Assembly: GCA_020402865.1 (NCBI GenBank)
Contig: JADBYT010000011.1
Location: forward strand, 62,001-126,000
Source: Bacteroidota bacterium
GTDB taxonomy: Bacteria > Bacteroidota > Bacteroidia > Palsa-965
Length of the DNA: 64,000 nucleotides
Direction: 5' to 3'
Below the pieces are notes generated by a model. It made no database searches, had not been told where the DNA came from, and saw nothing but the letters and a program-made list of their open reading frames with translations. The stretch's first letter is position 1. Every line of letters begins with the position of its first letter. Positions 3,515-24,006 of the stretch are shown here, in pieces. Made by a program: the position numbers and the translations under genes.

Positions 3515-3528
3515 CCGCAATTAGTATT

Positions 3529-4509
3529 TTGGAAATTTCAGAAAAAGCACGCGCGCTCCGTATTGTATATATGGGCACACCCGGTTTTGCCGTGGAACCG
3601 TTGAAAACACTGCTTGATGCAGGCTGCAATGTGGTGGGCGTAATTACTGCGCCCGATAAGCCGGCCGGACGCGGGCAGCAGCTTCAGCACAGCGATGTGA
3701 AGGCGTTTGCCTTAACACGTAACCTGCACATTTTACAGCCGGAGAAACTGAAGAACCCTGAATTTTTGCAGGAACTTTCTGCGCTCAAAGCCGATTTACA
3801 GATTGTGGTAGCATTTCGCATGCTGCCCGAAGTGGTGTGGAATATGCCGCGGCTGGGCACGTTTAACCTGCACGCTTCGCTGCTGCCGCGCTACCGGGGC
3901 GCCGCACCAATTAACCGCGCCATTATGAACGGCGATACCGAAACGGGCGTAACAACCTTTTTCCTGCAGCACGAAATTGACACGGGCAATATTGCCTTCC
4001 GCGAGGCATTGCCCATCGGCCACGACGAAACGGCCGGTCAGCTGCACGACAGGCTCATGCACACCGGCGCTGCACTGGTGCTTAAAACGGTAAACGCCGT
4101 GGCCGAAGGCAACTGCCCCGCTGTGCCGCAGCAGCAGTTTGTAAAGCCCGGCGAGATACTGCCCGACGCGCCCAAGCTCTTCCGCGAAGATGCTCACATC
4201 AACTGGCAGCTGCCTGCACAGCAAATCGTCAATCTGATACGCGGCCTGAGCCCCTACCCGGCTGCCTGGACCGAACTGCACAGCAGCCAGGCTCCTGCGC
4301 TGGGCTTAAAACTCTTCAAAGCACGTTTTGAGCCGGCCACACACCAGTTGCCAACCGGCACAGCAGTAAGCGAAGCAAACACGCTTAAAGTAGCTGTAGC
4401 GCAGGGATACCTATATATAGACGAACTGCAGGCCGCCGGGAAAAAGCGTATGCAAACGGTTGATTTCCTGCGCGGATACAGGCTTCCGCCCGATGCGGTA
4501 CTGAGGTAA
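3529..4509 (+). CDS. fmt: Methionyl-tRNA formyltransferase
   Basis: The enzyme transfers a formyl group from 10-formyl-THF to initiator Met-tRNA, which is needed for normal bacterial translation initiation. The 326-aa length fits the family. The N-terminal strand reads LRIVYMGTPGFAV. The catalytic motif NLHASLLPRYRGAAP places Asn113 and His115, and HEIDTG places Asp151, matching the known catalytic triad. A C-terminal OB-like domain follows residue ~210. No ATG precedes the first strand: the only ATG nearby (3571) would cut into it. The frame closes upstream at 3502-3504, so the TTG at 3529 is the best start, with ATT or ATA as other possibilities. Confidence 0.93.
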   Translation: MEISEKARALRIVYMGTPGFAVEPLKTLLDAGCNVVGVITAPDKPAGRGQQLQHSDVKAFALTRNLHILQPEKLKNPEFLQELSALKADLQIVVAFRMLPEVVWNMPRLGTFNLHASLLPRYRGAAPINRAIMNGDTETGVTTFFLQHEIDTGNIAFREALPIGHDETAGQLHDRLMHTGAALVLKTVNAVAEGNCPAVPQQQFVKPGEILPDAPKLFREDAHINWQLPAQQIVNLIRGLSPYPAAWTELHSSQAPALGLKLFKARFEPATHQLPTGTAVSEANTLKVAVAQGYLYIDELQAAGKKRMQTVDFLRGYRLPPDAVLR

Positions 4510-4732
4510 CGGTTACAGGGAAGCGATACTTCCGCCTTCGGAATTTCTACACATAAACGTTGAAACCGATACTATAAGCACAATACAGCGGCACACAAGC
4601 CGCAAAATAGCCGCTCACGCCACTTTCGGCTTTCGGCTGCCTTGAAAGCCGCAACAGCAGCCATTATCCCCTACACTTATTAACAAACCACCCTATTTAT
4701 CAACAAATCCGACGGTTTGTGAGGTGAAACAC
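4510..4732. other. Intergenic region between fmt and the first HU gene
   Basis: It holds a small hairpin just after fmt (ttccg/cggaa near 4531-4544) and an 8-bp inverted pair cggctttc (4627-4634) with gaaagccg (4644-4651). No ORF or RNA gene is apparent. The right end carries the HU promoter described separately. Confidence 0.4.
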
Positions 4733-4762
4733 TTGCACAGTAAGGAACTGCCATTATTTTTG
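4733..4762 (+). promoter_or_regulatory. Bacteroidota promoter TTG-N19-TATTTTTG for HU
   Basis: TTG at 4733-4735 and TATTTTTG at 4755-4762 are separated by 19 nt, which matches the phylum consensus for the primary sigma factor. The HU start codon is 46 nt further on. Confidence 0.75.
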
Positions 4763-4808
4763 CCACGTTCAGTAACAATCAATCTTTAACCAAACAAAAC
4801 AAAACGTC

Positions 4809-5084
4809 ATGAACAAAGCAGAACTGATCGACGCTATCGCTGGTGAGTCAAAACTTTCTAAGGCTGATGCCGGCCGTGCACTTGATGCAATGGTAGGTGC
4901 TGTAACCAAAGCCCTCAAAAAAGGTGACCGCGTGAGCCTCGTTGGCTTCGGTACTTTCTCAGTAACCAAGCGTGCTGCCCGCACAGGCCGCAATCCCCAG
5001 ACTGGCAAAGCCATCAAAATTGCTGCTAAAAAAGTAGCTAAGTTCAAAGCTGGTGCCGACCTGGCTAAGACCGTTAACAAGTAA
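4809..5084 (+). CDS. HU-family DNA-binding protein (first of tandem pair)
   Basis: The 91-aa product is a full-length HU: two N-terminal helices ([12 protein letters not shown]...) followed by the beta-arm region with GFGTFSV, the RxxRxGRNPQTG motif and a basic end rich in [13 protein letters not shown] dimers bend and compact DNA. A paralog of the same length starts 185 bp downstream; the two differ at scattered positions and each has its own promoter and terminator, so they are separately regulated. The upstream leader is A-rich (aaccaaacaaaacaaaacg), as is common for highly expressed Bacteroidota genes. Confidence 0.95.
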
Positions 5085-5118
5085 TTAAACGCCCTCAGGG
5101 CACTTGTTTACATCTAAA

Positions 5119-5156
5119 AAAGGCTGCTTCATGAAAATGAGGCAGCCTTTCTTTTT
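5119..5156 (+). terminator. Intrinsic terminator of first HU gene
   Basis: A 14-bp stem with one G-U pair (aaaggctgcttcat / atgaggcagccttt) closes a GAAA tetraloop and is followed by a T-run. Confidence 0.9.
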
Positions 5157-5203
5157 GTACGCACACTGTAGCAAAGAAAAATTACTGGTTTGTACGCATA
5201 TCC

Positions 5204-5233
5204 TTGCTTTTCTGCCAGGATCGGATAGCTTTG
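5204..5233 (+). promoter_or_regulatory. Bacteroidota promoter TTG-N19-TAGCTTTG for second HU
   Basis: TTG at 5204-5206 and TAGCTTTG at 5226-5233 have the same 19-nt spacing as the promoter of the first HU gene. The start codon lies 37 nt downstream after an A-rich leader. Confidence 0.75.
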
Positions 5234-5269
5234 TATTGTTCATTCATCCCACCAAAAAAACAAAACATC

Positions 5270-5545
5270 ATGAACAAAGCTGAACTCATTGAAGCGATTG
5301 CCTCAGAAACCAACCTGTCTAAAGCCGATGCCGGTCGCGCACTCGACGCGATTACCGGCACCATCACAAAAACGCTGAAAAAAGGCGACAAAATCAGCCT
5401 CGTTGGTTTTGGTACGTATTCGGTGAGCAAACGTGCAGCACGCATGGGCCGCAATCCGCAAACCGGCAAAGCAATTAAGATTGCCGCCAAAAAAGTAGCC
5501 AAATTCAAAGCCGGCACCGATCTCAACAAAACCATCAACAAGTAA
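5270..5545 (+). CDS. HU-family DNA-binding protein (second of tandem pair)
   Basis: This 91-aa HU aligns without gaps to the product of 4809-5084 and shares the [20 protein letters not shown] block. Differences fall mostly in helix 1-2 and before the arm (for example D/E at residue 8, TGTITK for VGAVTK, TYSV for TFSV). The frame is open further upstream, but the ATG at 5270 matches the family start and the leader of the first copy. The pair arose by tandem duplication; both copies keep the DNA-contact residues, so heterodimers are possible, as with E. coli HupA/HupB. Confidence 0.95.
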   Translation: MNKAELIEAIASETNLSKADAGRALDAITGTITKTLKKGDKISLVGFGTYSVSKRAARMGRNPQTGKAIKIAAKKVAKFKAGTDLNKTINK

Positions 5546-5562
5546 TTCCATTACTTTTCTGC

Positions 5563-5600
5563 AAACGGCAATGTTCGCTTTCGAACATTGCCGTTTTCTT
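5563..5600 (+). terminator. Intrinsic terminator of second HU gene
   Basis: A perfect 15-bp stem (aaacggcaatgttcg at 5563-5577, cgaacattgccgttt at 5582-5596) with a 4-nt loop is followed by ttcttt. Confidence 0.9.
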
Positions 5601-5633
5601 TTGCACACAGGTGAAACGGCTTTCGTAGCTTTG
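5601..5633 (+). promoter_or_regulatory. Promoter TTG-N22-TAGCTTTG of the ureohydrolase gene
   Basis: TTG at 5601-5603 directly follows the HU terminator. TAGCTTTG is at 5626-5633 and the ATG at 5652. Confidence 0.65.
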
Positions 5634-5651
5634 CGGCTGAATTTTTACCTT

Positions 5652-6716
5652 ATGACCAAAGCCGAAAAAATTGCCGCTTTCGACCCGAACAGCCCGGGCG
5701 ATCCCAATAGTTCCATTTATGGTTTGCCGTTTACCTGCGACGAAGCCGACACCGTGGTTGTGCCCGTGCCGTGGGACGTAACCGTATCGTACAGCGACGG
5801 TACGGCAAACGGACCGGAAGCCATTTTCGAAGCCTCGTTTCAGGTTGATTTGTATGATCCGTATGTGAAGGATGCCTGGAAATCGGGCATTGCCATTGAT
5901 GAACTGCCGGTGCGCGTAAAAGCAAAATCGGAGGAGCTTCGCGAAAAAGCAAAACTGTATATCGACGCCATCATCAACGGCGATGATCCCGGGCAAAAGC
6001 CCGAACTGAAAGCTATTCTCAACGCTGTAAACGCAGCCTGCGTAGAGCTCAACGGCCATGTAAACGACCGCACCGGCCACTGGCTCGATAAAGGCAAATG
6101 CGTGGCGCTGCTGGGCGGCGACCACAGCACACCCTTCGGCTTCTTCGAAGCACTGGCAGCACGCAACGAAAGCTTTGCCATTTTACAGATTGATGCGCAT
6201 GCCGATTTGCGCGAAGCATACGAAGGCTTCATCTTCTCACATGCGTCCATAATGTACAACGCGCTGCGCATTCCGCAAATCAGCAAATTAGTGCAGGTGG
6301 GCATACGCGATTATTGCCAGGCCGAAGCCGAACTGGTGGAAAACTCAAACGGCCGCGTGGTTACGTTTTACGACCGCGACATCAAGCAGGCAGCCTACAC
6401 CGGCCGCAGCTGGGCCGAACAGTGCAGCATCATTGTAAACGAGCTTCCGCAAAAAGTTTACATCAGCTTCGATATCGACGGACTTGATCCGAAGCTTTGC
6501 CCGAACACAGGAACGCCTGTGGCCGGAGGCTTTGAGTTTGAGCAGGCTGTATATCTCATGCAGCAGGTAGTGGAAAGCGGCCGCACCATTATTGCACTCG
6601 ACCTGAACGAAGTGGCTCCCGATCCCAACGGACTCAACGAGTGGGATGCCAACGTGGGCGCACGCCTTTTACAACGCATGTGCCACCTCATGGCACGTTC
6701 GCAGAAAAAGATTTAA
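5652..6716 (+). CDS. Ureohydrolase (agmatinase/arginase family)
   Basis: The 354-aa product has the binuclear manganese motifs of the family: GGDHS (155-159), DAHAD (Asp181, His183, Asp185) and SFDIDGLDP (Asp274, Asp276). These enzymes hydrolyse a guanidino group, releasing urea (agmatinase, arginase) or formamide (formimidoylglutamase). The segment after DAHAD (YEG...FSHAS.MYN) resembles agmatinase-like members, but substrate is not certain. The frame is open further upstream, but the ATG at 5652 is chosen because it lies just after the TAGCTTTG box and the upstream part overlaps the HU terminator. The N-terminal ~35 residues and a helical insertion at 85-130 make it longer than E. coli SpeB. 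The TrmH gene follows after 2 bp. Confidence 0.88.
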   Translation: MTKAEKIAAFDPNSPGDPNSSIYGLPFTCDEADTVVVPVPWDVTVSYSDGTANGPEAIFEASFQVDLYDPYVKDAWKSGIAIDELPVRVKAKSEELREKAKLYIDAIINGDDPGQKPELKAILNAVNAACVELNGHVNDRTGHWLDKGKCVALLGGDHSTPFGFFEALAARNESFAILQIDAHADLREAYEGFIFSHASIMYNALRIPQISKLVQVGIRDYCQAEAELVENSNGRVVTFYDRDIKQAAYTGRSWAEQCSIIVNELPQKVYISFDIDGLDPKLCPNTGTPVAGGFEFEQAVYLMQQVVESGRTIIALDLNEVAPDPNGLNEWDANVGARLLQRMCHLMARSQKKI

Positions 6717-6718
6717 TC

Positions 6719-7429
6719 ATGCAGCGATACAACAAGGCGCTGTATGATTACCTCATCGGCTTCATCAGCGAACAACGCAAAGAGAAATTCGAAAATTACA
6801 TCCTCAACCGCACACGCTATGTAACCGTGGCGGTTGAGGATATTTACCAGACACACAACGCCAGCGCCGTGCTGCGCAGTGCCGAGTGTTTCGGTATTCA
6901 GGATGTACACATTATTGAAAACCGAAACCGCTACCGCCCCAGTGCCGAAGTGGCAAAAGGTGCCGAAAAATGGCTCACCCTGCACTACCACAACAAGCAC
7001 GAAAACAACACGCAGGCCTGCATTCAGCATTTACGCAACGAAGGCTACCGCATTGTGGCCACTACCCCGCACGAACGCGATCAGATGATTTATGATCTGG
7101 ATGTGAGCAAGGGAAAAATTGCGCTGTTCTTCGGTACCGAAATTGAAGGAATTTCGGAGGAAGTACGCAACGAGGCCGATGAGTTTGTGAAAATTCCGAT
7201 GTTCGGATTTACCGAGAGCTTCAACATCTCTGTATCAGCCGCTATCTGTTTGTACGAAATCAAACAGAAACTCACCGATGCGTTGCCGTGGCAGTTATCG
7301 GAAACCGAAAAAGAAGATATCCTGCTTACCTGGGTAAAGCAATCGGTGCGTGAGCCTGAACTGCTGGAGAAAGAGTTTCAGAAAATCCTCAACACCGGAC
7401 TTCAGGCCGGCGAAGCAGAGCGCAGTTAA
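6719..7429 (+). CDS. TrmH/SpoU-family RNA 2'-O-methyltransferase
   Basis: The 236-aa product carries the three SPOUT knot motifs: motif 1 NASAVLRSAECFG (Asn47, Arg53), motif 2 FFGTEIEGIS (137-146) and motif 3 IPMFGFTESFNISVS (159-173). Family members use S-adenosylmethionine to methylate a ribose 2'-OH; the size and lack of an N-terminal rRNA-binding domain favour tRNA Gm18 methylation (TrmH). The start ATG is 2 bp after the ureohydrolase stop, so the two are co-transcribed. The gene is convergent with pdxH, with only 6 bp between stop codons. Confidence 0.9.
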   Translation: MQRYNKALYDYLIGFISEQRKEKFENYILNRTRYVTVAVEDIYQTHNASAVLRSAECFGIQDVHIIENRNRYRPSAEVAKGAEKWLTLHYHNKHENNTQACIQHLRNEGYRIVATTPHERDQMIYDLDVSKGKIALFFGTEIEGISEEVRNEADEFVKIPMFGFTESFNISVSAAICLYEIKQKLTDALPWQLSETEKEDILLTWVKQSVREPELLEKEFQKILNTGLQAGEAERS

Positions 7430-8894: not shown

Positions 8895-9929
8895 TTAGTC
8901 AAGCATACCGCTGGCCTGCAAAAACACATCCAGATCGGCCGTTTTGCGGGCAAACTCTTCTTTCGAAAGTGTGTCCCAGTAGTTCAGTGCATCCGGCGCG
9001 GCATTGTCCATAGCCGAATACTTCTGTTCTTTTACTTCCACGTTAAAGCGCAGGTAATTTGTTTTTTCAAGCAGCACCTGCTTCTGCACGTAGTCAGTGG
9101 TTTGGTTCACGCCATACATCATAATATCGAGCAGGGGCTGTATCCATTTCACCGCACTCATGCGCTCCGATTCACGAATGGAAAGCTGACCGTTGTAGCG
9201 CCCCGTGCCTACAGAAAGCACGTGTACATTGCTCAGCGTATCATCAATGCGGCGGTCGCCCACGTAATAGCGTGCATGTTTTATGAGTTCGGCAAGTGCG
9301 CCTATGCTCGGGTTGTTTATATACACACCGCCGTCAATACAGTTAAACTCGCGGTTGCCGTGTTTAAAATGGCAGGGTGGAAAATACGTAGGCCCGGCCG
9401 AGGTAGAACGGCAGGCATGAAACAAGGTAAAGTTTTCGTCTTCGGTTTCAAACGCTTCGCGGGTTTTGAAAAAGCGAGGCTCGTTATTGAAAATATCGTA
9501 GCTGCAAATGAGCACGGGTTTCAGCGTTTGCTTTAAACGCACCTCGCCCATTCGTTCGCGCAGCACGGCTTCAATGCCATCGGGCGCATAAAGTGTTTCG
9601 CCGCCCAGCACATAGCCTTTTACCTTGCGCCAAAGGCCGGGCCTGGGAAAAATACGCTGCCCGTCTTTCAGGTAAATATCAATAATGTCCTGCAGGTTAT
9701 ACTTCGGCAGCGATGGCCGCGTGGCATCCGGCACCGTAAGCGCCGCACTGATAAGACCACCCGTAGATGTACCGGCAATAATATCGAAATAACTGTACAG
9801 CGGCTTGGGCGAAAGCCCTTTGGCTTTGCGCTGCTCGTTTAAACGGATTTCAAGCAGTTGCAGATAACGCGCGGGAATAATGCCGCGCATACCGCCACCG
9901 TCGAGTGAGAGTATGCGAATGGGTTGCAT
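8895..9929 (-). CDS. Patatin-like phospholipase
   Basis: The 344-aa product has the patatin catalytic parts: the oxyanion loop GGGMRG (11-16), the nucleophile elbow GTSTG with Ser55, and the catalytic aspartate in DGG (Asp199). Such enzymes cleave acyl chains from phospholipids. There is no signal peptide or membrane segment, so it is probably cytoplasmic. Its size and start resemble the CapV-like patatins that serve as CBASS effectors, but no nucleotidyltransferase, Cap2/Cap3 or other defence gene lies beside it, so I treat it as a stand-alone lipase. Confidence 0.88.
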   Translation of the reverse strand: MQPIRILSLDGGGMRGIIPARYLQLLEIRLNEQRKAKGLSPKPLYSYFDIIAGTSTGGLISAALTVPDATRPSLPKYNLQDIIDIYLKDGQRIFPRPGLWRKVKGYVLGGETLYAPDGIEAVLRERMGEVRLKQTLKPVLICSYDIFNNEPRFFKTREAFETEDENFTLFHACRSTSAGPTYFPPCHFKHGNREFNCIDGGVYINNPSIGALAELIKHARYYVGDRRIDDTLSNVHVLSVGTGRYNGQLSIRESERMSAVKWIQPLLDIMMYGVNQTTDYVQKQVLLEKTNYLRFNVEVKEQKYSAMDNAAPDALNYWDTLSKEEFARKTADLDVFLQASGMLD

Positions 9930-11871: not shown

Positions 11872-11897
11872 AAATGTTTACAAAACTTCCAACTCCC

Positions 11898-12022
11898 CTA
11901 CCCCAGCAACGTCTTATGCGCTGCCTCCAGAATAGCAAATGCCTCCTCACGGGTAGCGGCCTCGGCGTAGGTACGCAGCACCGGCTCTGTGCCTGAGGCG
12001 CGGATCATCATCACCCAGCGGT
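11898..12022 (-). pseudogene. Duplicated 3' end of the phosphohexomutase gene
   Basis: This encodes the last 40 residues of the product of 12999-14405 (NRWVMIRASGTEP ... KTLLG) and the same TAG stop, with one extra Met codon. It is preceded in frame by a TAA and has no start, so it is a remnant. The synonymous sites are identical to those of the intact gene, which points to a recent or recombination-maintained copy. Confidence 0.9.
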
Positions 12023-12975: not shown

Positions 12976-12998
12976 CAAACTATCTACTTCCAACTCCC

Positions 12999-14405
12999 CT
13001 ACCCCAGCAACGTCTTATGCGCTGCCTCCAGAATAGCAAATGCCTCCTCACGGGTAGCGGCCTCGGCGTAGGTACGCAGCACCGGCTCTGTGCCTGAGGC
13101 GCGGATCATTACCCAGCGGTTCTCGTCGATAAAAAACTTCCAGCCGTCGAGATCGTCCACGCGGGCTACGGTGTAGTTGCCGAAGGCTTTGTAGGTGCCG
13201 TTTTTGCAGTTGGCTACGATGCGGTTTTTGTCGGCTTCTTCGAGGTGCAGGTCGATACGTTCGAAGGCGAAGGTGCCGGTAATGGCATATACTTCTTCGA
13301 TGAGGGCGTTGAGCGATTTGCCGCTTTTGGCCATGAATTCCCAGATGACAAGGCCCATCCAGATGCCGTCGCGCTCGGGAATATGGCCTTTTATGGCAAT
13401 ACCGCCCGATTCTTCGCCGCCCACCAGCACATCTTCCTTCACCATGATGCCGCAGATGTATTTGAAGCCGATTTTCACCACTTCGAGCGGCAAGCCATAG
13501 TGCTCACAGATGTTCTTAATTTTCACAGTGGTGCTGAACGCGGTGCACACTTTGCCGCGCATGCCTTTGTATTTGGCTAAGTAGTGAATGAGCAGGAGAA
13601 TGATGTGGTGCGAATCGACAAAATTGCCCTTGCTGTCGAACAGGCCGATACGGTCGGCATCGCCGTCGGTAGCGAGGCCCACATCAATATCGCCCGATTC
13701 GCGGATCACGCTGGCAAACTCTTCGAGGTTGCGCAGAATAGGCTCCGGCGCCTGTCCGTCGAAACTCGGGTTGTGCTCGCAATGCAGCAGGGTGGCATCG
13801 GGGAATAAACGACGGATTACATTTTGTCCGGCACCGTACATGGCATCATACGCCAGATTGAGGTTCGAATTGCGGATGGCATCGAGATCGAAGCTGGCTT
13901 CTACGTGGCGGATGTAATCGTCTTCGAGCGGCACAATTTTGAGCAGGCCCGAGGCTTCGAAATCAGCCAGTTTAAGACTGTCGAGCGGCGTTTCGGCCAC
14001 TTCGGGAATGAGCGGTTCAATTTCGGCAATGCCTTCGGGCGAAAGCGGGCCGCCGTAGGAAGCCTTGAGTTTATAGCCGTTGTACGACGGCGGGTTGTGA
14101 CTGGCGGTTACGATAATGCCCAAATCGGCACCGTAGTTGCGCGCACCGAGCGATACCATGGGCGTGCTCACAAAACCTTTGGCCAGATACACTTTGATGC
14201 CGTGGTGAAGCAGCACTTTGGCGGTGGTTTCGGCAAACAGATCGCCGGCAAAACGGCAGTCGTGTCCAACTACCACAGCGGCGCCGGGCTTTTGCTGCTT
14301 AAGCCATTTTACGGTGCCTTCGGTAACGCGGGCTACATTTTCAACGGTAAATTCTTTCGCTATAATGGCCCGCCAGCCGTCGGTGCCGAATTTGATCTGG
14401 TACAT
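12999..14405 (-). CDS. Phosphoglucomutase/phosphomannomutase (alpha-D-phosphohexomutase)
   Basis: The 468-aa product has the four-domain signature of the superfamily: phosphoserine loop TASHNP (Ser102), metal loop TDGDADR (Asp237, Asp239, Asp241), sugar-binding GGEESGG (319-325) and the C-terminal phosphate-binding RASGTEP. It interconverts sugar 1- and 6-phosphates; glucose/mannose versus glucosamine specificity is not clear from these motifs. Length is normal and the stop is intact. The gene lies 57 bp downstream of the ternary-system operon on the same strand and might be read through from it. Its last 40 codons are repeated at 11898-12022 beyond the Bro-N pseudogene. Confidence 0.92.
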   Translation of the reverse strand: MYQIKFGTDGWRAIIAKEFTVENVARVTEGTVKWLKQQKPGAAVVVGHDCRFAGDLFAETTAKVLLHHGIKVYLAKGFVSTPMVSLGARNYGADLGIIVTASHNPPSYNGYKLKASYGGPLSPEGIAEIEPLIPEVAETPLDSLKLADFEASGLLKIVPLEDDYIRHVEASFDLDAIRNSNLNLAYDAMYGAGQNVIRRLFPDATLLHCEHNPSFDGQAPEPILRNLEEFASVIRESGDIDVGLATDGDADRIGLFDSKGNFVDSHHIILLLIHYLAKYKGMRGKVCTAFSTTVKIKNICEHYGLPLEVVKIGFKYICGIMVKEDVLVGGEESGGIAIKGHIPERDGIWMGLVIWEFMAKSGKSLNALIEEVYAITGTFAFERIDLHLEEADKNRIVANCKNGTYKAFGNYTVARVDDLDGWKFFIDENRWVMIRASGTEPVLRTYAEAATREEAFAILEAAHKTLLG

Positions 14406-14462: not shown

Positions 14463-17400
14463 TTACAAACCCAGCGGCACATCAAGCACATGCAGCACAC
14501 CGCCCTGTTCGAGCCAGGCAATTTTGTTTCGTCCGGCGGCACTGAGGCTGATAAGTTCCTTACCCACCGGGCGGCGAAAAACCACGGGCATTTCGCCGTT
14601 TTCGTCCAGTTTGCACACCACCAGCTGGCCTTCGCGGTAATAAGCGATGTGTTTGTAGCTGATGAAGGTGATTTCACTCACAAACTCGCCCAAAATTTTG
14701 CGCCATACTTTTTGCGTGCCCGGCTGCACCACAAAAATATCGTGGTAGCCGGCCATGCAGCACATCGGGTTACTGTGATAGGCCGAAAACTGCAGGTTGT
14801 AGGCTGCATCGGGCAATTCAATAAAATCGGCAAGTGCGTTTGTGGTGTTTATTTTGAGGTGATAATTGAGGTAATTGCAATAAAAAAATCCATCGGCATA
14901 ATAGCCGTAAGAGGCAAACTGGCTGCCTTCGGTAAGTGCTTCGGGCGGGGCGTATTCGAAATGCAGGTCGAGTTGTTTGAGAAGTTTTCCTTCTTCCCAG
15001 TATTGCAGCGAAAGCTGGGGATGATAGAGCAGCACCCAGCAGGAGTTTTCGTGTTCGCCGGCCGAATAAGCCAGCAGCCTTTCGGGCAGGTAATCGAAAA
15101 ATACGGCTGCCAGCGCAGCCGGATGCGGCGAGGAGGCTGCCATGTAGCCGTTGCAAAGCACCTGCAAGGTGTGGCGGTTGCGGAGCTGTATTACATCGGG
15201 CAGGAGCGGATGATGCTGTATTTCGAGGTTTTCGACGGCTTCGGTAAACGGGTCGGTCCAGTTGAACTGCTCGGTTTCGCCGGAGGCACTGATGCGCACC
15301 ATGCTTAGTTTCTGCTCGGCTTCGCCCAGCGCCACCCAGTAGCGGCTGCCGGTAATGAGTTTGCGCCACAATACACCTTTGGGCAAATTGATGCGTTGTA
15401 TTTTCGACATTGCAGCGGGCTGCGGCGTGTGTATGCGGTTCTGAACAATGTAGCGGCTTGCATCGGCCTGCACGAGGCTGTCGCTGTGGGTGAAATGCGG
15501 CAGCTGGTTGAGTGCGGTGTGCTTGCCTTCGAGCGCCTGTGTGCTGATGAGGCGCAGGGCCAGTTGCTGCGCCAGGGCGGCATCAGCACTGTCGGGCGCG
15601 GCATGCTGGTAAATGAGCCTGAGCTGGTTGAGGAAAATTTGTTCCTGCTGCACTTTAAGGCCGGTCTGATAAAGCCGCTGCGCGGTGTGTGCGGCACTTT
15701 CGTCCTGCTCTGCCCGCAGGGCAATATAGCGGTGCAGGCAGTTTTCCTGCGGGTGCATGCTGTTCCAGCCCATGAGCAGCGATTCTTCGGCGGCGGCGGT
15801 GAGGTGCTGCTTATCGTGCTGCAGGCGGGCGGCTTCGAGGTAATTTTGCTGGGCCAGCGCCTGCTCTACGCAAAGCTGATACATGCTTTGCGCCTTTTCT
15901 TCGTGGGCCAGCATGCGGTAAAGGTCGCCGGCTTTTTCGTGCTGTTTCAGTTCGCGGTATTCTTCGGCGGCTTCGGCCAGCAGTCCGCCTTTTTCGAGGC
16001 ACTGTGCGGCCAGCAGCTGGTTTTTGATATGGTCTTTGTACAATGCAGCAGCTTCGCGGAAATAGCGGCCCTGTTCGAGCACGCTGGCCGCGCTGTGCAA
16101 ATCGCCGAGCAGGTGTGCATACACGTAAGCGGCTTTGCGGTAATCGCCTTTTTCGAGCAGCAGGTTGGCCTGCTTTATGTAGCGTTCGCGGAGTTTCTGG
16201 TAATGCTCGGCCGAGGTAAACGAACCGCCGCCGCCACGTCCGAGGCCGCCCAGACTGAAATCAGGCAAACCGCGCGAGAGACTGTCCCAGCCATTGTCGC
16301 CGCCGCGCCCTAAGTAATCGCTGTTCAGCGGCACGGCATACTGCAGACCTTCGTCGGGATTTTCGTCCATCATGCGCACCAAGCGGTCGAGCTCCGATTC
16401 GCGGCGCTTCTGCAACTCTTCCAGACTTCGCTGCACCCGTTCGCGCACACGCTGCCGCCAGCGGCTAAACCAGCCACGTTGTGCATTGGTGTCCGAAACC
16501 GCAGCAGCGTGTTGCGCCGCACCGCCACTGCCGCGCAGCCAGTTCATCAACCGCGAAAACCACGAAGGCCGCACAGCACGCGCAGGTTGTGGCGCAGATG
16601 CCCGGTTTCGCCGGTTTTCTATCACACCGTGCATCAACAGGCGGATTACAAAAAATGCAATCAGCAGCACAGGTGTAATGCCCATGCTTACCACACCGCT
16701 GCGCAGCAATAAAATCACGGCAAGAATACCGCCCGCCACAATCAGCCCAAGCAGAATATACATACCAAAATCGGCACTGCCATCCTGCCTGTTTGCTGCT
16801 GCTGCTTGCCCCGGGCGCACAGCCACATTGCGCCGCAACCGCCCGATAAGATGAAAAGCGAGCAATATTCCGCCTGTCCACAACGCCATTTTCCAAAGTG
16901 TGGCAAACGAAATCACATTAAACACCAGTAAAAGCACCAGCGCAATTCCACCCGCCCAAAGCAAAGCCATAAGCCACGGAAAATCAGTACTGCTGCCCGA
17001 AGGCTGTGCCGCAGCATTCTGCGGAGAAGACTGAGCGCCGGGCTGTAATTGTTCGGCCACTTTCGGATACAGCAACATCACCGCAACCGATACACCCAGC
17101 ACAAACCACATCCCTCCCGAAATCGTTCCCGTTACAAACACCTGCATCAGCGCCACACACAACAACACGGTGGTGATAAAAATGGTAAACGCATTTAGCT
17201 GCCGGAGATAGTTGAGCGACTGCAGTGCTGATTTTTTTTCTGTTACTACTTTACGGTACAAAGCCAGCAACAGCGCCGCCGATAAACCCAGCGTAAGTAT
17301 TATCATAGCCGCCGGATGCTGATACACGGCCACCTGCACAATGAGCAATACAAGCTGAACAGCCCCCGCCACAATGAGAATAATCCCCACCACAAGGCCT

Positions 17401-18260
17401 GCATTTTTCCAGCGTTTGCCTTTGTCTTCCTGTGTGGCAATAAAGCCAAACACCAGCAGCAGCACAATGGCCGAAACAATCCATAAAAACGCATCGCGCC
17501 AGCCCGGACGGTTGGCAATTAATCCGGCCACACTAAGCAGCGATAGATAAGCCACGCCCAGAAACGTAAACAGCTTTACCAAAAATGCGGCGGCCGTATT
17601 GTTGTCTTTGCTTTTACCACCCAGCATGCGGTTAACTAACCCGAGCAGGCCAAGCCTTAGCGTTTGCAGTCCGTCGGTTTGCCGGCTGCGTTCTTCGTTG
17701 CTTAAAATCTGCCGCAGGGGCTTTGCGCCAATTTCCTGCTGTACCTGCTGCATAAAATTATCGGCACTGGCGCGGGGCATGCCCACACTTTGCAGCGGCG
17801 GAAATTCCGGTGCGGGTGTAAGTGCTTCGTTCCAGTTGCCTTCGGCAGGCGCTGTACATTGCAGCAGCGGTGCAAACGAAAACGCATCGGTTGCATCAAA
17901 ACCAACCAGCCCGGCCGATGGATGAAACACCTGCACCGGATACAGCAAACGCTGTGCAAGTTCATCGGGCGTAAAAGCGGGTGTGAGTGTGGCCTGACAC
18001 GGAATAAAAAGTTTACCGGCCACACAGGTGTAGGGCGCAGCAATATCGGCTTCATCGGGCACGCGGCTGCCAAACACCACCAGCAGGCCCAGCGGCTCGG
18101 CCGTGCGCAGCGATTGCGGCACCACATACGCGCGCACCTCTTCCGAATCAAGTCCCCAGCCGCTCAGCGCGCGCAGCCACACAGCCGGATCGGCACTGCC
18201 GATAAACGCAGCGGCCACAGGTCCTGCCGGACGCGAAGCGGGATGTAAGGTCAGTTTCAC
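14463..18260 (-). CDS. MoxR-vWA-beta-propeller ternary system protein: membrane, TPR and propeller (bpX6-like)
   Basis: The 1265-aa product has four parts. Residues 1-170 form a soluble alpha/beta domain that I liken to the bpX6 domain of the MoxR-vWA-beta-propeller ternary systems. Residues ~222-395 and 428-545 hold about eight to ten membrane helices. Residues ~600-680 are charged then Gly-rich, followed by an alpha-solenoid of TPR-like repeats (~685-850, LLEKGDYRKAAYVYAHLLGD and similar). Residues ~950-1265 are beta-rich with repeated W/Y-containing blades, consistent with a propeller. The start is a GTG that overlaps the upstream stop (GTGA), implying translational coupling. It is the last gene of the five-gene operon. 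The bpX6 assignment is by architecture and context, not by alignment. Confidence 0.78.
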   Translation of the reverse strand: MKLTLHPASRPAGPVAAAFIGSADPAVWLRALSGWGLDSEEVRAYVVPQSLRTAEPLGLLVVFGSRVPDEADIAAPYTCVAGKLFIPCQATLTPAFTPDELAQRLLYPVQVFHPSAGLVGFDATDAFSFAPLLQCTAPAEGNWNEALTPAPEFPPLQSVGMPRASADNFMQQVQQEIGAKPLRQILSNEERSRQTDGLQTLRLGLLGLVNRMLGGKSKDNNTAAAFLVKLFTFLGVAYLSLLSVAGLIANRPGWRDAFLWIVSAIVLLLVFGFIATQEDKGKRWKNAGLVVGIILIVAGAVQLVLLIVQVAVYQHPAAMIILTLGLSAALLLALYRKVVTEKKSALQSLNYLRQLNAFTIFITTVLLCVALMQVFVTGTISGGMWFVLGVSVAVMLLYPKVAEQLQPGAQSSPQNAAAQPSGSSTDFPWLMALLWAGGIALVLLLVFNVISFATLWKMALWTGGILLAFHLIGRLRRNVAVRPGQAAAANRQDGSADFGMYILLGLIVAGGILAVILLLRSGVVSMGITPVLLIAFFVIRLLMHGVIENRRNRASAPQPARAVRPSWFSRLMNWLRGSGGAAQHAAAVSDTNAQRGWFSRWRQRVRERVQRSLEELQKRRESELDRLVRMMDENPDEGLQYAVPLNSDYLGRGGDNGWDSLSRGLPDFSLGGLGRGGGGSFTSAEHYQKLRERYIKQANLLLEKGDYRKAAYVYAHLLGDLHSAASVLEQGRYFREAAALYKDHIKNQLLAAQCLEKGGLLAEAAEEYRELKQHEKAGDLYRMLAHEEKAQSMYQLCVEQALAQQNYLEAARLQHDKQHLTAAAEESLLMGWNSMHPQENCLHRYIALRAEQDESAAHTAQRLYQTGLKVQQEQIFLNQLRLIYQHAAPDSADAALAQQLALRLISTQALEGKHTALNQLPHFTHSDSLVQADASRYIVQNRIHTPQPAAMSKIQRINLPKGVLWRKLITGSRYWVALGEAEQKLSMVRISASGETEQFNWTDPFTEAVENLEIQHHPLLPDVIQLRNRHTLQVLCNGYMAASSPHPAALAAVFFDYLPERLLAYSAGEHENSCWVLLYHPQLSLQYWEEGKLLKQLDLHFEYAPPEALTEGSQFASYGYYADGFFYCNYLNYHLKINTTNALADFIELPDAAYNLQFSAYHSNPMCCMAGYHDIFVVQPGTQKVWRKILGEFVSEITFISYKHIAYYREGQLVVCKLDENGEMPVVFRRPVGKELISLSAAGRNKIAWLEQGGVLHVLDVPLGL

Positions 18261-20743
18261 CGGTTGCGGAGGTTTTGCAGAAATGGTTCGAGACAGGTGC
18301 GCATAAATTCGCGCACATCAATACGTTTATGTCGATATTGCGGCGGTACAAACAGTGCATTACCGGCATACATGCCGTTTGAAATCCACACCGTTGTATC
18401 GGTTTCCGAAATACTCACGATTGAAAAATCAGGAATGCTTCTGTTCGCACTTCTGAAATGAATAAAGCCCCGGTGATCCTGAATAATCACACTGCCATCG
18501 GGCCATTCGGCCACACCGGTATCGGCGCGGTTGTAGGCCTGGAGCGGGGCAATTTCAAAGCGCTGCAGGTTTGCCGTACATACTATTTTTTTATCATAAA
18601 GCATTACCCGGTTGTATTGCTGCCGGTCCCAGCCCTGCGCTTCACGCCAGTACAACTTATCGTTTTCACACACCAGTACTTTCTGATCAGCAAACAAACG
18701 CCCCAGATCATCAAGCGCAAAAAACGACTGTGTATCAAATGCGCTGTAGCCGGGATTGATGCGTTTCTTTATCTCTTTTTTGTTGATTCCCGTTAAATGG
18801 CCGTGCGTACCGGTATGCCGGGCATCGTTATAAGCCATTCGCTTAACCGATCCCGATTGCACATCATACACTTCAGCAATACTTCCGTCCCAATTGGCAA
18901 AACCTTGTGCACACATCCACACCTGCTTGCCGTAAAAGCCCGGAATAATGAGTTCCTGCGTGTCATTTCCGGTAAGCGAAAACGAAAGCAGTCTGAATAC
19001 CTGATTTTCTTTATCGTGATAGCCGAGCACCAGTTCACCGTGTTCGGAGAAATGCCACAAATGAAAATTGCCCTGCGGCTTGTCGTGTTCATTCATGCAG
19101 GGATGCAGTTCGTAGCCAGCTACACCGGTGGTGTTTGGAAAGAAAAGAATGCGGCGGTTATCGTTAATTACCACAATGCCGTAAGCCGGGGCATAGTAAA
19201 AATCAGGTGCTTTTATTTTACAGCCTTTAGCGGCAAACAGCAATGGTATTTTTTCCTGTTCAAAAAATGACGGGAGTTGTTTGGTGTATTCGGGATAACT
19301 GCGGTTGGATCGTTTCTTTTTGCGGGTGTTGGGGAAATGTGCGGGCGTATTCTGCGTGATTTTCCTTTCGGGAAAAAGTAATTGGTCGAGGTCAAAGGTG
19401 GCGGCGAGAAGTTCTTCGCGGCCGGATGCCGAGCAGCGGTAAAGTGTAAAACGTCCGTTGCGGTTTACGGCAATAAGGTAGGCCAGTTTTTCCTGCACGG
19501 GCAGCAGCCGCGCCAGAAAATCGGGGTCGTGCAGCAGAGGTTCGGCGGTGATGAGGATGTATTCTTCGTCGGCCTTGCTGGTTTGACGGAGTATGTGCAG
19601 CAATGCATCGCCGCTGTGCAGGGCGGGTTGCAGTCGGGTGAGTGCGTTGCGCACGCCTTCGGGCGTATGCAGGGCCACAGGCTCGCTGCGTGTGCCGCCA
19701 AGCATAACAGCCTCGGTGCTGCTGATGTGTTTGTTTTGCTGCGCACAGGCTAATGCCGCCGCCACGGCAAACACGCGCGGCTTGCCCCAAAGCGGCAGCG
19801 AAGTATCAATAAGCAGGATGCGCCGCCGCTCGGGTGTATTGGGCGGCGATTCGCGGCGCAGGTACATGGCTTCGTTGTTGGCTAAACGCGCCATGAGCAA
19901 ATCGTCGTCGTTGGCCAGTTCGCTGAGCAGCAAACGATGCAGCGGCCCCCGGTTGCTGATGTCTGATACGCCGCCAAGCTGCTGATCATCGTTGCTTACA
20001 CTCAACGGCGGAATGCGGAATACTTTCAGAATAGCCTGCGTGAGGCTGGCAATACCTTCTGTTTCCTGTTCGTGTTGCAAACTGCCCAGCAGGTCTATCA
20101 CCGGCTCGGGACTGAGTTCCTGCAACGGCACGGGCAACTGCGCAAGACCGGTGTCGAGTATGTGTGCAAGCTGCTTGGGCGAAGTGATGCGTTTGCCGAG
20201 CGCTGCCAGTTGTGTAAACGTATGTTCAACTGCAGCCCGCGTCACAATCCCCTTTTTCAGAATCTGTTCATCATACCTGCCCGATTCAAACTCAGCCACA
20301 ATACCCGCTGCATCTTCCGCATGAATAGCAAACAGTTCGGGCAGGCTGCGCAGCAAATGCGTACGCGCTTTTCCGGTGCGGTAGCTTTCGGGAAGTAGAG
20401 CAATGTGTTTCAGAAACACAAAAGCATCTGCAGCCATACCACGCCCTTTATACATCGCTTCAAGCGAAGAGGAAACTTCTTTCCAGTGCCTTAATCCACC
20501 GGTAAACAACTCCTTCTTCAATTCCATCTCCTCCGGCGAAAGCCGGCAGGCCGCCAGCACAAACAACAAGGTATTTATATGCGGCAAACCCGAAGGTTGT
20601 ATCTCTTTCATTACCGCCAGCAAATCTTCGCGGTAAATAAGTGTCTCTTTATTTTCCCACTCTATCACTTTCAGCCCTTCGGCCCAATGCCAGCACCACT
20701 GCTGCGAAGCACCGAAATAATCAGCTGCTGTAATTTTTGTCAT
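18257..20743 (-). CDS. vWA-beta-propeller protein of the ternary system (degenerate MIDAS)
   Basis: The 828-aa product contains an all-helical N-terminal region (1-280), a von Willebrand A-like domain (~305-440) and a beta-rich C-terminal half (~500-828) with repeated strands ending in motifs such as VWMCAQGF and ILFFPNTTG, consistent with a propeller. The vWA strand reads ILLIDTSLPLWG: the DxSxS metal motif is DTSLP, so the third position is Pro and metal binding may be weakened. ATG 20743 follows a GAGG ribosome binding site 8 bp after the preceding stop. It overlaps the next gene by the GTGA junction. vWA proteins typically partner MoxR ATPases, one of which is encoded two genes upstream. 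Confidence 0.8.
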   Translation of the reverse strand: MTKITAADYFGASQQWCWHWAEGLKVIEWENKETLIYREDLLAVMKEIQPSGLPHINTLLFVLAACRLSPEEMELKKELFTGGLRHWKEVSSSLEAMYKGRGMAADAFVFLKHIALLPESYRTGKARTHLLRSLPELFAIHAEDAAGIVAEFESGRYDEQILKKGIVTRAAVEHTFTQLAALGKRITSPKQLAHILDTGLAQLPVPLQELSPEPVIDLLGSLQHEQETEGIASLTQAILKVFRIPPLSVSNDDQQLGGVSDISNRGPLHRLLLSELANDDDLLMARLANNEAMYLRRESPPNTPERRRILLIDTSLPLWGKPRVFAVAAALACAQQNKHISSTEAVMLGGTRSEPVALHTPEGVRNALTRLQPALHSGDALLHILRQTSKADEEYILITAEPLLHDPDFLARLLPVQEKLAYLIAVNRNGRFTLYRCSASGREELLAATFDLDQLLFPERKITQNTPAHFPNTRKKKRSNRSYPEYTKQLPSFFEQEKIPLLFAAKGCKIKAPDFYYAPAYGIVVINDNRRILFFPNTTGVAGYELHPCMNEHDKPQGNFHLWHFSEHGELVLGYHDKENQVFRLLSFSLTGNDTQELIIPGFYGKQVWMCAQGFANWDGSIAEVYDVQSGSVKRMAYNDARHTGTHGHLTGINKKEIKKRINPGYSAFDTQSFFALDDLGRLFADQKVLVCENDKLYWREAQGWDRQQYNRVMLYDKKIVCTANLQRFEIAPLQAYNRADTGVAEWPDGSVIIQDHRGFIHFRSANRSIPDFSIVSISETDTTVWISNGMYAGNALFVPPQYRHKRIDVREFMRTCLEPFLQNLRNR

Positions 20744-20751
20744 TACCTCAC

Positions 20752-21462
20752 TCACAACCACCCTCCTTTCTCACTCATGCGCCGCACCCCGCTGCGCGAA
20801 GCAGGCACACACATAATCTTCGGCACGGTTTCCATGCTGCCGTTGCTGTGCAGCAACACCAGTGCATCATTGTCGGGCACTAATTTTTTGATGAGTAAAC
20901 TTTCCAGCGCAGGCAGCTCCAGATCAAAACCCGCAGGCAGCAGCAGCGGGCCGCGTGCCCAGTATTCGGTGCCGGGCAGTGCGGGAAGAATATCGCCGCC
21001 CACCAGCACTTCTCCACTTTGCGAAGCCGCAAAAAACAAACGCGAAAGACGTATCTGCGGCGCCGTTTCGCAATACTCTTTCCACAGAAAAAAATTGGTG
21101 AGCAGCACACTGCTTTGCCGCGGCACTTCACTGGCTGCTAATTTTACTTCCACATGCGCATTCACCTGCCCCGCCATTGCCGACACGGGCAACTCCAGCG
21201 GAAACAACTCACCCAGCGGCTTCCAGTCAAGCTCAGGCAAACGGCTCACGGGCGTAATGTGCCCTTCGGGAAAAAGGAAATGATCGCGCCCCACCACCAG
21301 CCGCGCGTCAAAACCAATGTGCAGCAAACGCGCATCGGTTTCCTCCGCTTCGTCGCCAATCCACCACACACCGTTGTGCAATGCGCCCTTCAGCTGCGGC
21401 AATACGCGCACAGCGCCAAGCTCATGGCTGCGGTGTTGGGCAAGGTGGTAAATGCGTTTCAT
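20752..21462 (-). CDS. Ternary-system accessory protein (bpX-type)
   Basis: The 236-aa product has no signal peptide or membrane helix. It is beta-rich and contains GALHNGVWWIGDE near the N terminus and a long acidic-hydrophobic C-terminal part. I recognise no catalytic motif. The ATG overlaps the MoxR stop by one base (TGATG), and its own stop is 8 bp before the vWA gene, so it is translated as part of the set. In published descriptions of MoxR-vWA-beta-propeller systems small bpX proteins occupy this position; which numbered bpX family it belongs to cannot be settled by eye. Confidence 0.68.
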   Translation of the reverse strand: MKRIYHLAQHRSHELGAVRVLPQLKGALHNGVWWIGDEAEETDARLLHIGFDARLVVGRDHFLFPEGHITPVSRLPELDWKPLGELFPLELPVSAMAGQVNAHVEVKLAASEVPRQSSVLLTNFFLWKEYCETAPQIRLSRLFFAASQSGEVLVGGDILPALPGTEYWARGPLLLPAGFDLELPALESLLIKKLVPDNDALVLLHSNGSMETVPKIMCVPASRSGVRRMSEKGGWL

Positions 21463-22616
21463 CAGCTGGCCTGAATAATTTTCTGCCACAGCTCATCTAC
21501 GGGCTGCTGCACATAATTGCGCTGCACGTCGTTGGCAATCCATGCCGTGCGGCCGTTGAGGAAACGCAGGCGGTCTTTAATCACCGCACGCTCCGAAAAG
21601 CTTGTGTCGGGATTGTTCCATTGTTCGGCCAGCTGCACCACTTCGGCGTAAAGCGCTTCGGGATCGGGCCGCTCGTGCTGCTTTGCACGCGGATGGTGTG
21701 CCGCTTCGCTCTGGTCGTTTTCCACCACGGCGTTTACAATGCCTTCAATCAGTTCGCGCTGCTCATTGGTATCCCAGATGTAGCGCATCACCCACAAATC
21801 GCTCACCAGCGCCGTGTGGCGGTGGCAAAGCAGCGCACTGGCCGCAATGAGGCGTTGCAGTTTCACCGCGCGGCGGTCAGACACGGGCACACCCGCGTTG
21901 CGCAGCTGTGTAATGAGCTGGATAAATGCACTGCGCACCGGCTGCAGATCAACCGTAGCCAGTTGCTGCTGCAAAAACAGCACATCGTCTGCATCCAGCT
22001 GCGGGCGCGGCTTGCGGGGCTGCTTTTGTTCAATGGCCCAGCCGGCATCCAGCAGTTCATTCATCTGTTGCGGATCCACATAATCGCAGCGTACGCGCAG
22101 CAGGAAACGGTCAAAGAGTGCGCGCAGGGCTTCGTCTTCGGGCAGGTGGTTACTTGCGCCCACAATCATGAGCGCCGGCAAATCGCGCCGCTCGCGTCCG
22201 CGCCTGAACACGCGTTCGTTGAGCACCATAAGCATGCTGTTAAGAATGGCGCTGTTGGCATTGAGCAGCTCGTCGAGAAAAATCAGATTGGCCTCGGGCA
22301 GCATGCCTTCGGTGTTGGTGACCAGTTCGCCTTCGCGGAGTTTGCGGATGTCGAACGGACCAAAAATTTCGTTGGGCTCGGTGAAACGGGTAAGCAGGTA
22401 TTCGAACGAGCGGCCGTTGAGCGTGAGTGCCAGTTCGCGCACAAGCGCACTTTTGGCGGTGCCGGGCGGGCCGAGCAGAAAAAGATTTTCGCGCGCCACA
22501 AGGCTGATGCCCATGAGGTCGGCAATATCGTCTTTGCCCACAAAGGTATCTTTGAGGTGTTGCAGGGCGCGGTTCAGTGCTTCGGCCTGGGGCAGTGTGT
22601 CAGGCAGTGTGTTCAT
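21462..22616 (-). CDS. MoxR-family AAA+ ATPase
   Basis: The 384-aa product is a MoxR/RavA-type AAA+ ATPase. Walker A is GPPGTAKS (49-56), Walker B is LIFLDE (111-116) with Asp115-Glu116, sensor 1 lies in MIVGASNHLPED, and the arginine-containing segment ALFDRFLLRVRCD follows. The C-terminal third is helical. MoxR ATPases act as chaperone-like remodelling machines with vWA partners. The ATG at 22616 lies inside the upstream gene (17-bp overlap) and the stop overlaps the next start, so all members of the operon are translationally coupled. All nucleotide-binding residues look intact. Confidence 0.92.
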   Translation of the reverse strand: MNTLPDTLPQAEALNRALQHLKDTFVGKDDIADLMGISLVARENLFLLGPPGTAKSALVRELALTLNGRSFEYLLTRFTEPNEIFGPFDIRKLREGELVTNTEGMLPEANLIFLDELLNANSAILNSMLMVLNERVFRRGRERRDLPALMIVGASNHLPEDEALRALFDRFLLRVRCDYVDPQQMNELLDAGWAIEQKQPRKPRPQLDADDVLFLQQQLATVDLQPVRSAFIQLITQLRNAGVPVSDRRAVKLQRLIAASALLCHRHTALVSDLWVMRYIWDTNEQRELIEGIVNAVVENDQSEAAHHPRAKQHERPDPEALYAEVVQLAEQWNNPDTSFSERAVIKDRLRFLNGRTAWIANDVQRNYVQQPVDELWQKIIQAS

Positions 22617-23283
22617 TGGCTAAGGGTGCGGGCGGTTGAAGTAAATCGGTATCGAGTTCGGGCCAGAGCTGCAGGGCGTAATCGCCGAGTGCGGCTTTGA
22701 TGTGCTGATGCAGGGCAGGATGCGCGGCACGTTGTTTATCGTGCAGGGCAATGATGCGGTCGGCATAAAAAGTAAGCAGGCCGGTGTGTTGGGTGATGCT
22801 GCCGGGGTCGGGCGTGCTTTCGGTGGCAATGCCTGTGCCGGAGAGGGGCCAGTGCTGCGCCGTGTGGCGGATGCATTTTACAAGTACATCGCCCGGCGCG
22901 AGGCCGGCTGCCAGCTGATGCAGCCGGGGCAGGTGGCGCAGTACGAGGTCGGCGCTGTAGTGTGCTTCGGGTGTTTGTTCATCGGCAAAGGGTTTGAGCA
23001 GTTCAAGCACTTCGGCCTCTTCCACCTGCCGCAGCAAAGTGAGTTGCGCCGCGCGGTAAAAATGCAGTGCCGCCCAGTTGGCCGCTGCTTCGTGAAAAGC
23101 AGGCGCATCGGCCGGAACATGCAGCACATCAGCTGTATAAGCTTCGCGCAGCAAGGCAGAGGCCGTTTGCCAGTCGGTTTCACTCACCGGCAGCAACGAA
23201 TCATTCAGCACCGCATCGCCCGTTTCAAAAAGGCCATGCAGAAACTGCGTAAAAGGTGCTTCGGATGTGTGTTCGGCCGACAT
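22600..23283 (-). CDS. Helical accessory protein heading the MoxR-vWA-propeller operon
   Basis: The 227-aa product is almost entirely helical, acidic, rich in Ala, Leu and His, and has no signal peptide. It matches no enzyme family I know. It is the first gene of the coupled run 23283 to 14463 and overlaps the MoxR gene by 17 bp, so it is very likely a subunit or adaptor of the ternary system, comparable to the short bpX proteins seen beside MoxR in related operons. A near-consensus promoter (TATCTTTA) lies 36 bp upstream. Confidence 0.68.
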   Translation of the reverse strand: MSAEHTSEAPFTQFLHGLFETGDAVLNDSLLPVSETDWQTASALLREAYTADVLHVPADAPAFHEAAANWAALHFYRAAQLTLLRQVEEAEVLELLKPFADEQTPEAHYSADLVLRHLPRLHQLAAGLAPGDVLVKCIRHTAQHWPLSGTGIATESTPDPGSITQHTGLLTFYADRIIALHDKQRAAHPALHQHIKAALGDYALQLWPELDTDLLQPPAPLANEHTA

Positions 23284-23319
23284 CGTGTTAATGCGGGGTT
23301 AAGCTGTTTTCGGGTGTGG

Positions 23320-23327
23320 TAAAGATA
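23320..23327 (-). promoter_or_regulatory. TATCTTTA, near-consensus -7 box of the ternary operon
   Basis: Seven of eight positions match TAnnTTTG on the minus strand, 36 bp ahead of the first gene of the operon. Confidence 0.4.
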
Positions 23328-23373
23328 CCGATTCCCGACGGATTTGCATATCACGACATGGCTGCATCGTCCT

Positions 23374-23490
23374 GTGGCTTCTTCAAACTCAGCCACCTGA
23401 CTATGCAGCAATAGATTATGTGCTGCGGTGGCTTCGATCCCCGCAGAAATTGCGGGGACTCAGCCACCGCGACAAGCTCAGCCACCGGGG
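23374..23490. repeat. REP-like palindromic elements
   Basis: A first imperfect hairpin has arms gtggct (23374-23379) and agccac (23391-23396). A second, nearly the same as 405-449, has arms gcggtggct (23425-23433) and agccaccgc (23462-23470) around a ccccgca/tgcgggg pair. It is followed by gacaagctcagccaccggg, which is the core of the 42-bp repeat unit at 443-1114. Confidence 0.75.
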
Positions 23491-23499
23491 CATACTTGT

Positions 23500-24006
23500 T
23501 CAACGCTTTAAGGAGGGCAAGTCTGCAATGCGCTCATTTACACATTGTTCTTCTGCATACACGTTATTGATGTAGCGTAATGTATCGCCCGTAAATACTT
23601 TGCTTCCCAACTGATAACGTACCACCATGCCGTTAGAAAACCAGAACCGCTCATCTTCACCTTTCGTGTAGCCGGGACAATATTCCTGAGTTTTCGTATG
23701 TGTCTTTTTTTGCCGAAGTACAAACACAACTTTACCATTCATATAATAGGTTTCTGTTTGGGTACATGCACACTCACCACAATTCCGATCTATCAGCAAA
23801 CAATAATTGGTATCATTCGGGAAATAGTATCCTTTCAATCGCCCGCCGCAGTGTGTCAATCCGATGTATTCGTGACTAAGCAGTTTATCCTTTTTCAGTG
23901 CTTCATTTACGTGCAAATAGCACGCAGCCGCTTTTCGGGTTGCTGTTTCTGCCTGCTGAAATGCGATGCTAAGTGAGCAGATGAGGAGAATTACTAAGAT
24001 TCGCAT
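23500..24006 (-). CDS. Hypothetical Cys-rich secreted protein
   Basis: The 168-aa product starts with a signal peptide (MRILVILLICSLSIAF). The mature part has nine or more cysteines, including a CGECAC cluster near the middle, which suggests disulfides or metal binding outside the cytoplasm. I recognise no family. An upstream in-frame start (24063) would put a charged segment before the signal peptide and is less likely. TATCTTTA lies just upstream. The region from here to 24716 is more AT-rich than its neighbours. Confidence 0.65.
   Translation of the reverse strand: MRILVILLICSLSIAFQQAETATRKAAACYLHVNEALKKDKLLSHEYIGLTHCGGRLKGYYFPNDTNYCLLIDRNCGECACTQTETYYMNGKVVFVLRQKKTHTKTQEYCPGYTKGEDERFWFSNGMVVRYQLGSKVFTGDTLRYINNVYAEEQCVNERIADLPSLKR

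Follow-up and report, generated by a model that had tools for sequence, protein, structure and literature searches.

Five genes on the minus strand of the window (the whole stretch of 64,000 nucleotides analysed here, from a Bacteroidota bacterium) are best explained as one operon for a MoxR-vWA-beta-propeller (bpX) ternary system, and we are nearly certain that this operon belongs to subsystem 4 of Kaur and colleagues (Kaur, Burroughs, Iyer and Aravind, 2020; PMC7159879). The third component of the window copy contains a membrane insert of nine predicted helices, which is a new observation and differs from what is found in the relatives examined both in position and in number of helices.

Operon organization and family assignment

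The five ORFs run head to tail from 23283 to 14463, and the ORF check of the window recovered all of them where the initial annotation had placed five overlapping or nearly touching genes. The first gene (22600..23283) encodes a protein of 227 aa matching bpX4 (PF19920, E 1.9e-59), and the second (21462..22616) an AAA+ ATPase of 384 aa matching bpMoxR (PF20030, E 1.3e-100). They are followed by the genes for a bpX2 protein of 236 aa (20752..21462; PF19918, E 5.2e-54), for a vWA/beta-propeller protein with bpX0 in its N-terminal and bpX1 in its C-terminal part (18257..20755; PF19915, E 2e-20, and PF19917, E 2e-14), and for the third component, a protein of 1265 aa with a bpX3 domain (14463..18260; PF19919, E 3e-36). 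All matches were far above the Pfam cut-offs, and E-values of 2e-59 to 2e-14 across the five proteins (lower still for the ATPase) exclude chance. Every bpX profile that was sought therefore matched, and the products initially called a helical protein, a MoxR ATPase and a small bpX-type protein can now be named bpX4, bpMoxR and bpX2, respectively.

The junctions read from the sequence include a 17-bp overlap between bpX4 and bpMoxR, a TGATG between bpMoxR and bpX2, and a GTGA between the vWA and bpX3 genes, as annotated before. The bpX2 ORF was listed as 20752-21489 (245 aa), and the likely start of the gene is the ATG at 21462, which gives the 236-aa product. The vWA/beta-propeller ORF, listed as 18257-20761 (834 aa), likely starts with the GTG at 20755; this codon has the Shine-Dalgarno sequence AGGAGG 6 nt upstream and makes another 4-nt GTGA overlap, so that the bpX2/vWA junction is probably coupled too. 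The 8-bp gap previously given for this junction holds only if the alternative ATG at 20743 is the start.

The beta-propeller subsystem of the MoxR-vWA ternary systems is a comparative-genomics proposal, and no experimental work on a bpX system was found in the literature searched, in agreement with the earlier remark that little such work exists. In the published set, the MoxR ATPase carries a GXXXTAKS P-loop, the vWA protein is divergent (in a subset also at its metal site) and ends in a propeller of about four blades, and a third component combines membrane, TPR and propeller parts; additional helical and alpha+beta proteins are present in a subset of the beta-propeller systems (PMC7159879). 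The window operon shares the components, the P-loop variant, the degenerate vWA metal site and the third-component architecture, and, because its proteins match the Pfam families of subsystem 4, it is a member of an already described kind. It differs in the nine-helix insert located between the bpX3 domain and the linker of the third component.

In the window bpMoxR, the Walker A (GPPGTAKS, residues 49-56), Walker B (FLDE) and arginine-finger-like (ALFDRF) motifs are all intact, and the three motifs are invariant in 10/10 aligned relatives. The nearest solved structures are those of RavA (E 5e-51), the MoxR ATPase of E. coli whose partner, ViaA, is likewise a vWA protein; the two ATPase cores can be aligned along about 270 residues. 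Propeller, bpX2, bpX4 and bpX3 proteins are, to our knowledge, absent from the RavA-ViaA pair. In NCBIfam, the RavA equivalog score of the window ATPase (167.6 bits) was far below the cut-off of 681, and none of the operon proteins matched ViaA. The FtsH-containing MoxR-vWA ternary system (subsystem 3) has a similarly unusual P-loop and divergent vWA (PMC7159879), whereas the bpX operon, as judged from Pfam, lacks an FtsH-type second ATPase, Ubl-conjugation genes and a caspase-like effector; no AAA+ domain was detected by Pfam in the four non-MoxR proteins, and the operon thus has no FtsH-type third component. The NCBIfam and PADLOC scans of the five proteins returned no specific family, PADLOC giving at most a weak ATPase similarity.

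The annotation of the fourth product as a vWA-propeller protein was upheld both by the bpX0 and bpX1 profiles and by an AlphaFold2 model (mean pLDDT 82) containing both folds. The modelled vWA domain (residues 309-456) has VIA as its best fold match (Z 11.2); its other matches include Rea1-MIDAS (Z 9.4) and Ro60, which is a vWA protein involved in RNA quality control. The modelled propeller blades lie at about 509-656, over about 145 residues (Z 8-9.7). As for the vWA metal site, the first Asp (319) is invariant in 69 sequences, the second position is Asp in only 15/69 and Ala in the window, and the third motif position is Lys, Arg or Pro; the window protein therefore has the divergent metal site described for the family.

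The third component and its membrane insert

Among 72 third components encoded by a single ORF, that of the window is the longest. It is composed of the bpX3 domain (residues 1-173), the membrane insert (about 216-565), a linker, a TPR solenoid (about 681-940) and a propeller-like region (941-1265). The excess length corresponds to the insert, about 350 residues (216-565, encoded by 16566..17615 on the minus strand) in which hydropathy predicts nine membrane helices. At the same hydropathy threshold, single-ORF relatives have 0-3 segments and split forms have four. The split forms, in which the third component is divided into two genes, occur in some Flavobacterium and in Chryseobacterium-like genomes (our family f4, which we infer to be Chryseobacterium/Weeksellaceae); their helices come after the conserved linker, whereas those of the window come before it. 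No counterpart of the insert was present in the other third components (71 relatives aligned), and no source for it was found in 11 genomes of the family (best E 0.04, with stops). The insert had no match in Pfam (best DUF5392, E 0.14) and contains no internal repeat.

The fold of the third component was read from a structure model of a relative (L068; 907 aa, pLDDT 85), which shows an N-terminal alpha/beta bpX3 domain, a long TPR-like solenoid and a C-terminal propeller (Z about 20). The C-terminal region of the window protein aligns with relatives over its full length, with an identity of only about 15%, and its propeller is for this reason a putative one. The earlier description of a giant membrane-TPR-propeller protein is thus borne out by the bpX3 match and the membrane helices and, for the TPR and propeller parts, by the model of the relative.

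Kaur et al. described the third component as a variable N-terminal region, a membrane segment, TPR and a propeller, and suspected the variable region of being an effector (PMC7159879). Because a polytopic module occupies this very region in the window, the window variant is a good candidate for asking whether the membrane is the target of the output. It is conceivable, although we consider it quite improbable, that the window copy works in a channel-like manner or by disrupting the membrane, with the nine-helix insert acting as an effector that would be opened or released by MoxR-vWA remodelling upon an infection or RNA-damage signal. If so, the operon would encode a new type of abortive-infection system, one that acts on the membrane and in company with retrons and RNA repair.

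The ordered operon, the intact ATPase and the vWA protein argue for a MoxR-vWA remodelling machine, which a polytopic subunit would here tie to the inner membrane, and our preferred reading, for which we see about an even chance, is that such a membrane-anchored machine acts in biological conflict. We infer that the products would form a complex, in which bpMoxR may be a hexameric ring by analogy with RavA, the vWA-propeller protein its co-chaperone and substrate arm, bpX2 and bpX4 obligate adaptors, and the bpX3 protein the client or output subunit, with the TPR solenoid and the propeller as presumable cytosolic scaffolds. In the window copy, the polytopic insert would anchor the machine in the inner membrane. 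Upon a trigger, the ATPase would then remodel the complex, and the membrane subunit would be released or reshaped.

The RavA structures as nearest solved relatives of the ATPase and the nine membrane helices of the window protein are also consistent with a dedicated chaperone, similar to RavA-ViaA or NorQ-NorD, that would mature or maintain an inner-membrane enzyme or envelope complex; the ATPase and the vWA protein would act on a membrane client, and bpX3 would be the membrane adaptor. Several well-studied MoxR-vWA pairs serve enzyme maturation, and this counts against a conflict role. Two reports, according to which RavA-ViaA acts at the inner membrane (PMC9489729) and NorQD drives metal insertion (PMC13036017), were also counted in favour of the chaperone. 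However, no conserved client enzyme gene is located beside the operon, the nearest neighbours mostly varying between genera, and patchiness inside a genus would be unusual for a respiratory maturase; altogether, we regard a dedicated chaperone as rather unlikely.

Distribution and neighbours in other genomes

When whole genomes were scanned with the MoxR alignment, at least 549 relatives were confirmed, and nine further genomes were added from a sample of the phylum Bacteroidota. The gene order bpX4, MoxR, bpX2, vWA, bpX3 is found in each of the 80 loci with all components (the best 80 of the at least 549, which were those kept). The mean identity to the window is about 63% for MoxR, compared with 34% for bpX4, 31% for bpX2 and 26% for the vWA protein, which indicates that MoxR is constrained and its partners are fast-evolving. 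Considering that the order is fixed in 80 loci from several Bacteroidota families while all partners except MoxR have diverged to 26-34%, the five proteins can be expected to work together.

The phyletic spread is patchy and mobile. In the phylum sample, bpX2 and bpX3 were found in the same 10/395 Bacteroidota genomes, and the bpX operon was found in 0/11 relatives from the genus and family of the window organism, six of which are at least 90% complete. A housekeeping operon was rejected on account of these counts. The MoxR tree has two deep clades, and Chitinophagaceae and Hymenobacteraceae are present in both; roughly, one clade goes with short third components (about 570-600 aa) and the other with long ones (about 860-990 aa). 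In addition, a complete bpX copy is carried by a 245-kb plasmid of Hymenobacter yonginensis. Horizontal spread is the simplest reading of this mixing of families and of the plasmid copy. Phage records contained only distant MoxR ATPases (at most 43% identity) and no phage-borne bpX copy. The operon GC is 51-60%, against 50% in the window, and gives therefore no clear signal of foreign composition.

The neighbours of the operon in other genomes include genes for phage defence and RNA repair, and this points to a possible role in surviving attack. A complete type XIII retron (RT_XIII, E 4e-183; WGR_XIII; SWIM_XIII, E 2e-231) was found in the Flavobacterium locus L058 (934-7456), where the SWIM gene ends 54 bp from bpX3; WGR and SWIM are at the same place in L140 and L143, while in Flavobacterium L126 (12-6540) and L138 (2-3826) the retron genes are at the opposite side of the bpX operon. 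In three Niastella (L080, 17085-20965; L083; L084), a SWIM-DUF5691-MoxR cluster begins on the same strand 46-87 bp downstream of the bpX operon, which places two MoxR systems side by side. The link to defence loci, which the initial annotation had proposed to check, thus holds for relatives, with type XIII retrons beside their operons, and fails around the window copy. Other recurrent neighbours are a T4 Rnl2-type ligase, an RLIG1-type ligase, cREC, a calcineurin-type phosphoesterase, an RNase T exonuclease and Band 7 in Flavobacteriaceae and Weeksellaceae, and the NAD-salvage genes NrtR and NAMPT, which flank the operon in Pseudarcicella, a Puia MAG and a Bacteroidota MAG.

It should be noted that the immediate neighbours are, in a census, mostly ordinary metabolic genes that mostly differ from genus to genus, and that the neighbour families were picked after the flanks had been viewed, with most of their hits in one clade. 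The random-window control (0/49) is accordingly a weak one and no fair test, because the families were chosen post hoc. Similarly, in the phylum sample 2/5 genomes with type XIII retrons also had bpX, a small number confounded by Flavobacterium. WGR, SWIM and RNA ligases are not mentioned for subsystem 4 in the main text of Kaur et al. (PMC7159879). The retron, RNA-repair, NAD-salvage and second-MoxR neighbours are reported here as new, although such links may have been published elsewhere. The leads obtained from the comparison are the obligate five-gene set, the type XIII retrons directly beside the operon in Flavobacterium, and the recurrent RNA-repair and NAD-salvage neighbours.

The same neighbours could point to a stress-response or RNA-damage remodelling machine that would be a partner of RNA repair and NAD salvage and would not block phages itself; the ligases, cREC, phosphoesterase, RNase T exonuclease, Band 7 and NrtR-NAMPT near relatives' operons all fit, as does Ro60 among the fold matches of the modelled vWA protein. 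The RNA-repair neighbours are, however, limited to Flavobacteriaceae and Weeksellaceae, and none was seen within the window; this possibility appears unlikely to us. It could also be argued that the neighbours simply accumulated as accessory genes at shared hotspots and that the function of the operon is unrelated to them, for example surface or community behaviour. The same Flavobacterium site does hold differing accessory genes in different species, and an enrichment of the system in multicellular forms has been published, though a weak one (118 organisms, 44 multicellular, P 0.0094; PMC7159879). Against this, several distinct nucleic-acid or NAD families recur beside the operon in separate orders, and we consider mere accumulation very improbable.

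The most likely role of the system is, in our view, a response to genetic parasites or to RNA or NAD damage caused by defence systems. Patchiness, mobility, fast divergence of the partners and the neighbours place such a conflict role ahead of a membrane-enzyme chaperone, with the balance for and against it nearly level; the operon encodes no toxic or nuclease effector domain, which speaks against it. The window copy also has no recognised defence gene at its side, a patatin-like phospholipase gene excepted, and this, like the missing WGR and DUF5691 matches in the window genome and the PADLOC result, weighs on the same side.

One further arrangement was observed in an Acidobacteriota MAG (Thermoanaerobaculia; L077), where an FG-GAP/ASPIC-UnbV gene (3465-7022, 1185 aa) is located between the bpX2 and vWA genes.

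Surroundings of the window copy

The window operon is flanked by a phosphoglucomutase gene downstream and by two AT-rich genes of unknown function and a YceG/MltG gene upstream, and no recognised defence system adjoins it. The window genome gave no match to WGR, DUF5691 or SWIM_XIII, and thus does not contain the type XIII retron set. In relatives, the phosphoglucomutase gene is on other contigs or away from a conserved block ending at the YceG/MltG gene; because the two are separated there, the operon is at a synteny breakpoint. A clean empty site was not obtained in relatives.

A patatin-like phospholipase gene (8895-9929; PF01734, E 4e-24) lies 4.5 kb from the operon. Closer to it, there is a perfect 124-bp direct repeat (11885-12008 and 12986-13109), the second copy of which is the 3' end of the phosphoglucomutase gene. 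The 977 bp between the two copies are AT-rich (40% GC), contain a Bro-N gene and resemble a small insertion that the phosphoglucomutase gene has recently acquired at its 3' end. On the other side, the intergenic region upstream of bpX4 (23284..23500, no strand assigned), which presumably contains the promoter, has copies of the REP-like sequence GGTGGCTGAG, with a match at 23376-23394. This match is related to a tandem array with a period of 42 bp and the REP-like sequence GGCTCAGCTTGTCGAAGCC, located at 439-1219 of the window.
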